This document shows, piece after piece, positions 37,693 to 43,481 of a stretch of 64,000 bases of DNA. The first letter of the stretch is position 1. Every line of letters begins with the position of its first letter. The position numbers and the translations under genes are program-made. A model generated the notes under the pieces. That model was not told where the DNA came from and made no database searches. It saw only the letters and a list, made by a program, of their open reading frames with translations. The stretch comes from Actinomycetota bacterium (GTDB taxonomy: Bacteria > Actinomycetota > Thermoleophilia > RBG-16-64-13), in assembly GCA_016278725.1 (NCBI GenBank), contig JADQBG010000005.1, positions 1 through 64,000 on the forward strand. The letters are read 5' to 3'.

Positions 37693-40600
37693 TTAGGGAA
37701 TGTAGGATATGGGCGCGTCCATGGTGACGTCGGCGTTGGCCGCAGCCTCGTTCGCCTCGTCATCCGCCGCTACCCAGCCAAGCGAATTGGCCACCGGGTC
37801 GGTCAACCAGAACTTGGAGTAGTTCGCCCCGTGGCAGTTGGCGCAGGCCGTGGTGATGGCGGTGTTTCGCTGGATGCTGTGCGGGGTCGCATACTTCCAG
37901 GTCGGCAGTGCCCGGACCATCGCGCTGGTTATCAGTTCGTCGATCGCATTCGCACCCGTGTAGGTGAACGCGTCCTCGTCGATGGGCACGTGGCGCAGCA
38001 CCGAGTACTGTTTTTGCCCCGGATCACCGAACTTGGGATTGATACCCACGCGGAACGTAATCAGGGAGTCGGGAGCCACCGTCGCCGGGTCGCTCGCAGC
38101 AGCCTTGCGATCGGCGAGAGTCGGGTCGCTCTCGTTGTTCCTGAAGAACGGGACTCCGGCCTCGGTCACGTCCGTGTGGCAGCCGTAGCAGTTCTTGTAC
38201 GGCTGAGCGTGGCAGACGTAGCAGTCGATTTCCGACTGGTGTCCGCCCCGGTGCAGCGAGGTGACGGCTTCGAAGGCGGCGTCGATGGGGTGACAATCGA
38301 CGCACGCCGGGGCGGAGGTCACGTCATAGCGATCTCCATCCGCCGGGTGGCCCTCCCCGTGCATCTCGGCCATCTCGTGGCAGTCCATGCAGGTCAGCCC
38401 GGCACTCTTGTGCACGTCGGGCTTCAGGTTGTAGGCGGTATCCCCGTAAGGATGACCCGCGGGATAGGCGGCGGTGTTGCGGTCGAGGAGGGCATTGTTT
38501 AGCCCGTAGTACTCGTCCTTGACCCGCGAGCCGTGGCAGGCGGTGCAGTTGTTGTCCATGGAGGGCACGCCTTGGAAGGCGTGGCCGTTCAGGAAGCCGC
38601 CACCTGCCTGGGTCGGTACGCTCACGTGGCAGAAGCCGCACGCGGTCTGGTCGAACTCGTTGGCCGTGTGGCACTTGGTGCACTGCTCTTCGTAGCGCTC
38701 CATGGCCGCGGCCTGGTCGCTCGCGCCGGTGGGGAATCCCCGGTCACCCAGGATGCTGAGGTAACCGTTCAGAGTGGTGTGCAGACCGTCCGCTGCGGTG
38801 TCGACCACACCGTCGTGGCATCCGTCCGCGCAGTTGGGTCCGCCGGGAATGGCTTGGAAGTCGCCCGTGTGGGCGTCCATCCGGGTGTTTGCGGCGTCGT
38901 CGCCGCCGTGGCAATCGACGCAGTCACGAGCCTGGAAGTGAACACTGCCGAGAACGCTGGGATACTGCTCGACTCCGCCGTCGAATACCCAGACTTTCTT
39001 TGGCACCGGAACCGGTGCCACAGAACCGCCTCAGCCTTCACCTTCAGATGGAGCCACCGCCGGGGCCGGAGGCGGATCCATGACCTCGCGGTCGACGAAG
39101 ATCCCGGTCAGTTCCGTGTGGCAGCCCTCGCAACCACTGGGAGGTTCGTAGGCGGCCAGAGAATCGAGGTCGCCGTCATCCCCGTCGTTGAGCGGGAAGT
39201 CCCAGGTGCGCATCTGGTCGAAATTGAGCAACTGGCCTGAGCCGGGGGCTGCTGAGTTCCACCCGTTCATGCCGTAGAGCACGTTGCGCGCGTTCTCGTA
39301 GCCCATGATGCCGAAGGCCATGGTCGCCACCCCGCCGGTGTGGCCGGTGTAGCAGTAGGCCGCGATCATGCCGGCCGTTGGGTCCAGGTACTTGGTGTAC
39401 TGCTCCACGTTGGCGGACTGCAGCCAGGGAACCAGGATGGCTCCGGGGATGTGCCCTGCTTCGAAGTGAGCCAGGCTGCGGACGCTCACGACCTGAGGAT
39501 CGTTGGCCGGGTCGGCGTCGTCGAGAAGGGCCTGCAGCTGGGAAGGATAGATATGCAGGTCGGTCTGGTTGGGCACCGAGTTCAGGTAGCGGTGAGCGCG
39601 GATCACGATTTGCGTGATCGGGTCGGTTACGTCGAACGCGCTGAAGTCGGGGTATGGCCCGGCCTCTGGATAACTGACCGCTCCCGCTTCCAGTTCGCCC
39701 TTGATGACGATGCCCGCGGCCTGCGCATCCTCAAAGCGCGTGTCCTCGGGCACCAGTTCCCGATCGAACGACCAGGAGGTCATCCCCTGGAAGAGCACTT
39801 GGGCGATCGGGTAGGGGAGCGGCTCCTTTGCCGCCGCGGCTGTCGCCTGGGCGGCCGGGTCCGTGATGCGAAGGGCATTCAGCAGCACCATCGCAAAGTC
39901 GCCGTCATCGCCCCAATAGGAGGCCACCACGATGTGACGGTCCATGGGAATGCGCGGATCTTCTTTGAGAAGAGCCATGGCCAGATCCTGAAGCGGAATG
40001 TTGACCGCTCCCGGGATGTGCCCGTCGGCGAAGTCGGCCGGTTCCCGGGTGTCCAGGATGAACGGGTCGTTGGCCGAATTGTCGTCGAACAGCATCTTGG
40101 CAACGGCGTCGGTGCCGATAGTGTTGTAGCCGAGTCCGATCACGCCGTTCAGGTGGGCGGCGATGGCTTCAAAGTCCGCCCCGGCTGCCGCCGCGGTTCC
40201 CGTCAGGGCGCCGCCGAGTTTGGCCATCATGGCCAGGTCCATCATGTGGTCGACCATCTTTGCCACGTGGCCGCGGGTGGCGTTTTCGTACGGGCGGAAG
40301 GTGCCGTCGGGGAAGCCGTCGAGAATGCCGTTGTATTTGGCCTTGATGATCGCGGCTTCGGCGAAGTCCGGCAGGTCGGTCAGACCGTGGTCCCAGTCGG
40401 CCGGAGGCTCTTCCAGGGCATCCCCGCCGGCCCGCACGATCACGAGCGCCAGTTGGGCGCGGGTGATGTTCGCGTAGGGATTGAACATGCCCAGGTCATC
40501 GCCCTCGAAGTAGCCGGCCGAAGCGGCTTCTTCCACATAGTCAAAGGGGTAGGGCGTTCCCGTTGCCGGAAGGCAGTCCGGGAAGGTGGGATTTGACGCA

Positions 40601-40866
40601 TTGTCTGTGGCCGCGGTGTGCATCTCGGTGGCCAAGACGAGGATTTTTGCCATTTGCATTCGCTTGACGAATTCGTCCGGACGGAACGTCCCGTCCGCAA
40701 AACCTTCGACGATGCCTGCGTTTGCGAGCGACATGATTTCTGAATGGAAATCGTGGCCCGCCGGCACGTCATCGAAGGAGTCCACTGCGAAGGCCGCTCC
40801 TGCCATGGTCAGGACCAAAGCCCCGAACAGAACGAGGAGCAAACCTCCCTTCCTTCTCAATGACAC
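37693..40866 (-). CDS. Candidate selenoprotein: SLH, double rhodanese, multihaem cytochrome c (in-frame TGA)
   Basis: This is a 1057-residue reading frame with one TGA at 39031-39033, read here as Sec612. GTG 40866 has GGAGG six bases upstream and opens a signal peptide ending AFA. Three SLH repeats (about 27-215) are followed by two rhodanese domains. The first lacks the active cysteine (VVASYWGDDGD); the second keeps it (AAYCYTGHTGG). Near the end of the first part is CEGCH, then a Pro/Ala/Gly linker, the TGA, and a Gly/Pro linker. The second part has nine more CxxCH sites plus one CADGCH (CxxxCH), so 10 or 11 haems. The second part has no signal peptide or good ribosome site of its own, so as a haem protein it needs the first part for export. 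A terminator ends the gene. Pseudogenisation by one mutation is the main alternative. Confidence 0.7.
39002..39033 (-). promoter_or_regulatory. Candidate SECIS hairpin at the in-frame TGA
   Basis: On the minus strand the TGA is followed by 11 nt, then GGCACCG-GTTC-CGGTGCC, a perfect 7-bp stem with a 4-nt loop. The loop begins with G-U and lies 18 nt after the TGA, inside the 16-37 nt range expected of bacterial SECIS elements. Confidence 0.6.
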
Positions 40867-41205
40867 TTGGTACCTCCAGCAGTTTGGGCGTGGGCTTGCT
40901 GCAGGATCGGTTGGCGGCATCACCTCCCATGGCCGGTTTGTCTACCGATTCCTCAACTAATTGCGAAATTGTTCACAATCACCCCTAGAGTAATACGCGA
41001 AGGCGTCGAAGAGGGAGTTTCTGGGGCGCCCGGTCGGTGGCTTTGGCTATAGGGGTATAAGCAACTCCTATAACCGCTTACCCGGGCGCCCAACCCGGCC
41101 GACATTGCCTCCACGCGCCGGATCATGCCGGGATCCGGCGCGTAACGGCCGGATCGTCTTCCTCACGGGCCGTCGAGGGGCGGGCTGTGGGCCCGCCCGG
41201 ATCTC
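40867..41205. other. Regulatory region without a gene
   Basis: These 339 bp lie between the cytochrome gene start and the STAS gene stop, both on the minus strand. They hold the Rex-like site described separately and an AT-rich patch near 41045-41075 with imperfect repeats (TATAGG and CCTATA arms). I see no coding frame with a ribosome site. Confidence 0.5.
40961..40978. promoter_or_regulatory. Rex-like operator
   Basis: TTGCGAA-ATTG-TTCACAA differs from the Rex consensus TTGTGAA-N4-TTCACAA by one base. It lies 95 bp upstream of the SLH-rhodanese-cytochrome start. Rex represses respiratory genes when NADH is low relative to NAD+ and releases DNA when NADH is high. Confidence 0.6.
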
Positions 41206-41789: not shown

Positions 41790-43481
41790 ATGCTGAGACG
41801 GGGCTTTCGGATCGAGGCGGTCCTCTTTGACTTCGACGGCACCCTGACCGAGCCCGGGGCCCTCGATTTCCCTGCGATCAAGCGCAGTCTGGGGTTGCCC
41901 CTGGAAAGGCCCATTCTCGAGGCGATCGAGGAGGGGGGCGAGGACCGGGACAAAGCCGAACTCTACCGACAACTGGAGGAGCTCGAACTGGAGGCTTCCG
42001 CGCGGTCCCGCCCCAACCGAGGGGCGGAGTCGATGCTGGGGCGGCTCAGAGAACTCGGTCTGGCGTTGGGAGTGGTTACCCGAAACGGCCGCGCCTCGGT
42101 TGCCCGCGCCCTGCAGAACTTCGAGTCGGTAACCGCGGAGGATTTCGGAGTTCTGGTTACCAGGGACGTCCCCGTCGCCCCCAAACCGGCTCCCGACCCC
42201 GTCCTCTACGCGCTGGGGAAGCTGGGAGTAGCGCCGGGACGGGCGCTCTTCGTGGGCGACCACTGGTTGGATGTGGAGGCCGGCAAGGCCGCAGGCGCCG
42301 TGACCGTGCTGCTCGAGAACCGCGGCGCCCCGGAAGAAGCGCGGAGGGGCGCCACGCCCGGGGAGGAAGGCCGGGCGCAGCCGGATTTTCGCATCGCCGG
42401 TCTGGATCAACTGGAAGGTGTCCTCCGTTTGGGCCGGGCTCTTCCCGCCGGAAAGTTCCCCGAGGATCTATTGGCCGGCTTTCTCTCGAGTCTGCCCGTT
42501 GGTCCGAAGGCATCGGCGCAACTGCTTGCCGGTCCGGGTGTTGGTGAAGACGTAGCCGTGGTGGATCCCGCACCGCGGGGCGAAGGGGCAGCAGGTGGCG
42601 AAACCGCTCTTATTGCCTTGAAGAGCGATCCCATCACTTTCGTGGAGGCTGCGGCGGGAAGCTATGCCGTCACCGTCAATGCAAACGACGTCGTTACCTG
42701 TGGAGCGGATCCCCGCTGGTTTCTGGCCACCGTGCTGGCTCCTGTCGGCTCCACGCCCTCGGAAGTGCTCGCCGTTCTCGAGGACCTGCGGGCCGCGTGC
42801 GGCGAACTGGGACTGATGCTGGTGGGAGGTCACACCGAGGTGACCGACGCGGTCAAACGGACGGTCGTAAGCGGCACCATCGCCGGTACAGTCCGGCGCG
42901 AAGCTCTGCTGCTCAAGAAGAACGTGCAACCCGGCGATCGCCTGCTGCTGACCAAGGGGATCGCCATCGAAGGAACCGCCATCCTCGCGCGGGAGTTTCG
43001 AGACTTGTTGCTCGATCGCGGACTGACCCAGGAGGATTTGGCGCAGGCCGCAGGCTGGCTGAGCCGCCTGTCCGTGTTGCCCGAAGCCCGCCTCGCTTTG
43101 GCTCACGGAGGAGTGCGCGCGATGCACGACGTCACCGAAGGCGGGCTTGCCACTGCCGTCCGCGAGTTGAGCATCGCCACGCAGCGGCGGGTCGAGGTCT
43201 CCGGGGTCTTGCCGGTGTATCCTCTGACCCGACGAATAGCGGCGCTGCTCGGAATCGATCCGCTGGGCCTGATAGGCTCCGGCAGTCTCCTCGTCTGCGT
43301 GGCTCCGGAGGCGGCTGCGTCGCTGCTCCAGGCGCTCAGGGCCGAGGGTCACGAGGCGGCCGATATCGGACGCTTTGCCCCGGGCGAGCCGGAGGTGGAG
43401 TGGCGCGGAGAATTGGGGCGCAGGTGGCCCCGATTCGAGGTGGACGAGCTTGCACGAACACTGGAGGGTGGGGGATCATGA
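41790..43481 (+). CDS. HAD phosphatase fused to an AIR-synthase/HypE-like domain
   Basis: The product is 563 residues. The N-terminal HAD domain (about 8-195) has DFDGTLTEPG, VVTRNG, Lys in VAPKPAPDP and FVGDHWLDVEAG, as in phosphoglycolate-phosphatase-like enzymes. The C-terminal domain (about 220-555) has GEDVAVVD, NANDVVTCGADPRWFL, GGHTEVTDA and MHDVTEGGLATAV, the signatures of the PurM/HypE/SelD/ThiL ATP-binding superfamily. It lacks the glycine-rich Cys/Sec loop of SelD and the C-terminal PRxC of HypE, so I do not call it either. It ends by overlapping (ATGA) a small coiled-coil gene. The substrate is unknown. Confidence 0.78.
   Translation: MLRRGFRIEAVLFDFDGTLTEPGALDFPAIKRSLGLPLERPILEAIEEGGEDRDKAELYRQLEELELEASARSRPNRGAESMLGRLRELGLALGVVTRNGRASVARALQNFESVTAEDFGVLVTRDVPVAPKPAPDPVLYALGKLGVAPGRALFVGDHWLDVEAGKAAGAVTVLLENRGAPEEARRGATPGEEGRAQPDFRIAGLDQLEGVLRLGRALPAGKFPEDLLAGFLSSLPVGPKASAQLLAGPGVGEDVAVVDPAPRGEGAAGGETALIALKSDPITFVEAAAGSYAVTVNANDVVTCGADPRWFLATVLAPVGSTPSEVLAVLEDLRAACGELGLMLVGGHTEVTDAVKRTVVSGTIAGTVRREALLLKKNVQPGDRLLLTKGIAIEGTAILAREFRDLLLDRGLTQEDLAQAAGWLSRLSVLPEARLALAHGGVRAMHDVTEGGLATAVRELSIATQRRVEVSGVLPVYPLTRRIAALLGIDPLGLIGSGSLLVCVAPEAAASLLQALRAEGHEAADIGRFAPGEPEVEWRGELGRRWPRFEVDELARTLEGGGS

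Follow-up and report, generated by a model that had tools for sequence, protein, structure and literature searches.

Does the TGA inside a long gene of a thermoleophilian actinobacterium end one protein and leave a second frame behind it, or is it read as selenocysteine (Sec), so that a wall-anchored rhodanese and a multihaem cytochrome are made as a single polypeptide? The gene lies in the first 64,000 nucleotides of contig JADQBG010000005.1 (assembly GCA_016278725.1), the stretch that we analysed and refer to as the window. A previous sequence-only reading had noticed that a frame with SLH and double rhodanese domains joins a haem-rich frame in phase across this TGA; we confirmed the joining, which is on the minus strand (the strand had been left unstated). 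Comparative sequence evidence leads us to the reading, to which we give a probability of about 0.9, that codon 612 is translated as Sec to yield one long wall-anchored protein. Sec insertion at this codon, as previously suggested, is supported by a TGA that is invariant within the motif GEG-U-GG (U is Sec) over three phyla, by a covarying bSECIS hairpin, and by the presence of SelA, SelB, and tRNA-Sec in the genome.

The gene starts with a GTG codon (40866-40864) and, beyond the TGA, stays in the same phase over another 445 codons, up to a TAA at 37693-37695 (Table 1). The PF00395 match scored 98.2 bits, over the cut-off, as expected of an SLH-anchored surface protein; PF00581 matched in two stretches at 79.8 bits, also over the cut-off, and the active-site cysteine (codon 39352-39354) is confined to the second rhodanese domain. 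The predicted Sec is about 75 residues past the end of this domain. The whole protein contains 10 CxxCH and one CxxxCH predicted haem sites behind a signal peptide, which makes it a predicted multihaem c-type cytochrome, and its SLH, rhodanese, and CxxCH content is consistent with the surface-anchored sulfurtransferase-cytochrome envisaged in the sequence-only reading. Full-length homologues (L018 and L019) share about 60% identity with it and have the same single TGA. The AlphaFold model of the cytochrome part (17 sequences) had a pLDDT of 34.

Table 1. Features of the predicted Sec-containing gene and its 5′ flank (window coordinates).
Feature	Position	Strand	Basis
Complete reading frame: SLH + double rhodanese + 11-haem cytochrome, predicted Sec612	37693..40866	minus	Translation with TGA as U; 1057 codons + TAA
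Ribosome-binding site GGAGG	40873..40877	minus	Sequence; 6 nt 5′ of GTG 40866
Signal peptide MSLRRKGGLLLVLFGALVLTMAGAAFA, residues 1-27	40786..40866	minus	Sequence; hydrophobic N-terminus
Three S-layer homology (SLH) domains, limits approximate	40240..40779	minus	PF00395, E 2.5e-28, 3 stretches
Rhodanese domain 1, limits approximate	39724..40131	minus	PF00581; active-site loop ASYWGDDG lacks Cys
Rhodanese domain 2	39253..39543	minus	PF00581, residues 461-557 of P0001; active-site Cys in CYTGHTGG
First haem site CEGCH, 5′ of TGA	39118..39132	minus	Sequence; nearly invariant in family
TGA, predicted selenocysteine 612, motif SEGEG-U-GGSV	39031..39033	minus	TGA in 47/47 distinct family members
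Predicted bSECIS hairpin GGCACCG-GUUC-CGGUGCC	39002..39019	minus	Fold + covariation across family
Ten-haem cytochrome part: 9 CxxCH + 1 CxxxCH	37696..39030	minus	Alignment A1; haem counts

The sequence-only reading had proposed a search for homologues with another residue at the Sec column, and had named close relatives with a sense codon and no Sec machinery as one observation that would count against Sec. Of the homologues whose sequence spans the column, 47 are distinct, and each of them has TGA there; a sense codon, TAA, or TAG occurs in none. These homologues come from Actinomycetota, Dehalococcoidia, and Desulfobacterota-type bacteria, and GEG-U-[GA]G is almost invariant in their alignment. 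For example, a genome of the same genus (94% identity) has SEGEG-TGA-GGSV, as do two other genera of the same family (about 60% identity), one of them on a 4.6 Mb contig; 15 further relatives among Desulfobacterota-type bacteria and Dehalococcoidia, at only 26-36% identity, keep the TGA within GEG-TGA-GG or close variants. In the phylum of genome G018, the cytochrome alignment matched 40 of 297 sampled genomes, with TGA in every match covering the column; the family is rare in the host's own class (4 of 299 sampled genomes) and phylum (3 of 396). Since the TGA is present in every homologue that covers the column, the in-phase join of the two frames is not a matter of chance. No homologue with cysteine at the Sec column was found among the 47 sequences, so the usual argument from Cys/Sec pairs is unavailable for this family. 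Single-base changes to TGA are frequent errors, which might point to an assembly error or to gene decay; but the same TGA in independent assemblies (including the 4.6 Mb contig from another genus) and in all 47 sequences, together with a frame that is otherwise intact, makes the probability of either negligible.

A perfect hairpin with a GUUC loop had also been described downstream of the TGA. It is there, its stem starting 12 nt and its loop 19 nt from the TGA, and it is kept across the family. A perfect stem in this gene alone would be expected in about 3% of recodings, and the proof therefore rests on the family rather than on the lone hairpin. At least five of six stem pairs, together with a G among the first two bases of the loop, were found in 46 of the 47 sequences (both register groups); when the same proteins were recoded synonymously 500 times, the number averaged 6.5 and never exceeded 14 of 47. 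The family has two stem registers, and in the larger group (29 aligned sequences) the loop, GUU or GGU, sits on six pairs. Covariation in this group, scored over eight pairs (the six and two extra at the stem foot), was 0.460 versus 0.187 when shuffled, with 0 of 500 as high, and slid controls gave 0.03-0.24; 94% of the cells are paired, five of the eight pairs have changed on both sides, and one pair is U-A in 15 sequences and G-C in 14. Within the clade of fused genes the stem is GGCACC...GGUGCC in this gene versus GGUGCC...GGCACC in L018 and L019. SelB and tRNA-Sec, directed by this hairpin, would read the UGA as Sec, and the product would begin with its signal peptide, followed by the three SLH and two rhodanese domains (the active-site Cys being in rhodanese domain 2), one haem site, the GEG-Sec-GG loop, and ten haem sites.

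If the TGA were instead a true stop, two proteins would be made from the adjacent in-phase frames, and there is indeed a GTG-initiated frame directly 3′ of the TGA; in this gene, however, the nearby GTG start is placed at the hairpin's foot. The segment beyond the TGA, with its ten haem sites, lacks a signal peptide, as had been remarked for this gene: the hydrophobic leader is absent from it in 48 of 48 loci, and is present on the part before the TGA in nearly all. Moreover, GEG-TGA-GG is kept on both sides of the TGA, in phase, across phyla, and the SECIS covaries. We regard a pair of separate proteins as very improbable.

The host genome has the components for reading UGA as Sec: SelA (464 bits), SelB (344 bits, cut-off 242), and tRNA-Sec (74.9 bits, anticodon tca). 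The selA and selB genes are adjacent on one contig; this pair and the tRNA-Sec gene lie off the contig of the gene described here. Among candidates for SelB, L006 is SelB and L008 was rejected, its sequence reading as TypA/BipA. SelA was found in 44 of 48 family-positive genomes and in 28 of 32 controls; because the controls have it nearly as often, its presence does not discriminate. In genome G010 (contig C1, about 2997371-3006230; L103:2871-11730), a stretch of 9 kb contains selA, selB, the fused gene for the Sec cytochrome, and that for tRNA-Sec; G008 (contig C57; L104:1969-10662) has the first three within 9 kb as well. Each set is a compact island, as though the machinery for Sec had moved together with the Sec-cytochrome gene or were retained next to it. 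The distant Desulfobacterota-type genomes G888 (L136) and G761 (L137) have selA no more than about 3 kb from the gene of the Sec cytochrome, separated from it by an rluD-like gene in G761; no SelB match was found in the 14 kb around these two loci.

We also considered that the TGA might be read through as a residue other than Sec, by general recoding or as a leaky stop, given that Gly or Trp would be tolerable in such glycine-rich surroundings. Against this, TGA is an ordinary stop in the window, where it ends 15 of 47 frames; the column is never TAA, TAG, or a sense codon; 46 of 47 sequences keep a SECIS with G in its loop; and the Sec machinery is present, sometimes adjacent. Such readthrough is therefore, in our view, another very slight chance. 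An in-frame TAG among the SLH matches was followed in one case, where it was an ordinary C-terminal stop. Beside the Sec gene, at 41790-43481 on the plus strand of the window, a HAD-type phosphatase is fused to an AIR-synthase-like domain (related to HypE, ThiL, and SelD); it scored below every SelD, HypE, and ThiL cut-off and was rejected as a SelD candidate.

A multihaem cytochrome with Sec has been predicted before, namely ExtKL of Geobacter (PMC1914089, PMC5877670, PMC6148476). Like the protein described here, ExtKL of Geobacter sulfurreducens (GSU2937-2936; NF040886) is a multihaem c-type cytochrome that is exported and has one predicted Sec, its gene having a single in-frame TGA, so that our protein might simply be a member of that family. 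The two differ in layout: ExtKL, in the genomes sampled, has five haems before Sec and none after it, in the motif IPDG-U-PTPNR, whereas this protein has one before and ten after, in GEG-U-GG; and ExtKL clusters with a separate rhodanese, ExtH, whereas here the rhodanese is fused. NF040886 (cut-off 250 bits) is matched neither by the cytochrome nor by its relatives, the best score in the host genome being 9.9 bits at another place. A profile comparison aligned only a haem patch of 27 residues, and the surroundings of Sec are not homologous. Furthermore, genome G936 has both a GEG-U-GG cytochrome and a true ExtKL, as separate genes (L073, L106). Membership in ExtKL is thus extremely unlikely. 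Some of the NF040886 matches, in G944, G691, and G867, are copies of the ExtKL family without an in-frame stop; ExtKL, unlike the GEG-U-GG family, seems to have non-Sec versions.

Among NCBIfam models, the haem region matched best, and weakly, to ExtN, ExtO, and ExtM of the same Geobacter cluster (NF040967, NF040968, and NF040943), at 45.7, 45.4, and 37.4 bits against cut-offs of 200, 200, and 800; no NCBIfam equivalog scored over its cut-off for the haem part. To our knowledge, Sec has not been reported from these three proteins. The octahaem cytochrome of the tetrathionate reductase family (TIGR04315, cut-off 375) gave 9.4 bits with the whole protein and 17.9 with the part after the TGA. The Ribbon DG selenoprotein model (NF049953, motif GUxG, cut-off 130 bits) did not match at this gene and gave only noise elsewhere.

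The sequence-only reading had said that a selenoprotein of the surface-anchored sulfurtransferase-cytochrome kind was not known to be described. This holds for the GEG-U-GG family, of which literature searches on the motif and on Sec in multihaem cytochromes gave no prior report; it does not hold for the general idea of Sec in a multihaem cytochrome, already predicted for ExtKL. A 2026 table of 119 selenoprotein families includes ExtKL and an octahaem family, and none with the present layout (PMC13188914). The same review describes Sec-containing rhodaneses (forms 1-5, including TsoB), which likewise combine rhodanese and Sec in one protein; their motifs are UxxS, UxxG, CxU, and UxxxxU (PMC13188914), whereas here domain 2 keeps its Cys, and Sec belongs to a glycine loop beside the haems and not to a rhodanese domain. 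Two listed representatives, the 'cytochrome c family protein' WP_013164579.1 of a 2022 selenoprotein review and WP_275805277.1 of the 2026 one, might prove to be members of the GEG-U-GG family under the ExtKL label. These two entries apart, the 11-haem Sec-cytochrome family is apparently absent from current catalogues.

A rhodanese gene is adjacent to, or fused with, the Sec cytochrome in 25 of 36 loci: it lies 3′ of the cytochrome in Desulfobacterota-type genomes, 5′ of it in Dehalococcoidia, and is fused in the actinobacterial clade. Judged from these gene arrangements, the pair looks old. In the operon of Dehalococcoidia a 4Fe-4S protein comes next, and several also have a cytochrome b561-type subunit; in G761, two rhodanese-like proteins follow, with a multihaem protein that has a membrane part. 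A fused version also occurs in the Desulfobacterota-type genome G908 (L089; L118:8754-11687), as a lipoprotein with a chitobiase/Fn3-like domain instead of SLH. All fused forms group as one clade with full support, and on this tree the fusion would need a single origin, with different anchors (a joint alignment, A2, that misaligned the separate rhodaneses was left out of the analysis). Since most relatives have the rhodanese and the Sec cytochrome as separate neighbours, the fusion is probably the derived form. Fused genes were seen in this actinobacterial clade and in one sampled Desulfobacterota-type genome.

What might such a protein do? The constant rhodanese partner points to sulfane sulfur, and the neighbouring genes suggest, at somewhat less than even odds, an enzyme bound to the wall in which sulfane sulfur on the rhodanese either receives or gives up electrons, Sec being placed where the two parts meet. 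The rhodanese Cys would take up sulfane sulfur, whether of polysulfide, thiosulfate, or elemental sulfur; the Sec of the glycine loop, which would be flexible, would exchange with the rhodanese persulfide; and the haems would carry electrons to the persulfide, releasing sulfide, or away from it. The protein would then act as a surface sulfur oxidoreductase supplied by the electron-transfer chain of the cell. A related arrangement is the psr operon of Desulfurivibrio dismutans, in which an exported rhodanese, proposed as the acceptor of sulfur outside the membrane, lies beside polysulfide reductase (PMC12142623); there, as here, a secreted sulfurtransferase adjoins an electron-transfer module, which is polysulfide reductase in that operon and a Sec multihaem cytochrome in ours.

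The main functional rival to sulfur chemistry is the reduction of selenite or tellurite, or else the passing of electrons to minerals, as in Geobacter extHIJKL. In that system the rhodanese ExtH and ExtKL are encoded side by side in a single cluster, and mutants that have lost extI are impaired in reducing selenite and tellurite (PMC5877670, PMC6148476); the cytochrome part of our protein also scores best with ExtN, ExtO, and ExtM, although far under the cut-offs. On the other hand, the rhodanese partner is a constant feature of the family, and the lack of homology to ExtKL over the Sec region weakens the parallel. We give this alternative rather less than an even chance. Returning to sulfane sulfur, we tentatively propose, again as an idea that may well prove wrong, that the apparently uncatalogued family of 11-haem Sec cytochromes with an exported rhodanese provides anaerobes, over a wide range, with a Sec-dependent respiratory enzyme that acts on sulfane sulfur. 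In some lineages it would be linked to quinones through the 4Fe-4S and cytochrome b subunits, and the actinobacterial gene would pack all functions into a single polypeptide anchored in the wall; in a relative, selA, selB, and tRNA-Sec lie alongside this gene.

Automatic annotation would cut these genes in two and drop a catalytic-looking residue. As the family is found in about 13% of the sampled genomes in the phylum of G018, annotation may be wrong for a redox enzyme that is common among anaerobes. The placing of Sec next to a rhodanese and haems would be chemically new, and the protein is a candidate extracellular sulfur redox protein for bacteria with an SLH-anchored wall. Having no Cys version among the sequences seen, the family would also offer a direct test of why anaerobes retain Sec.
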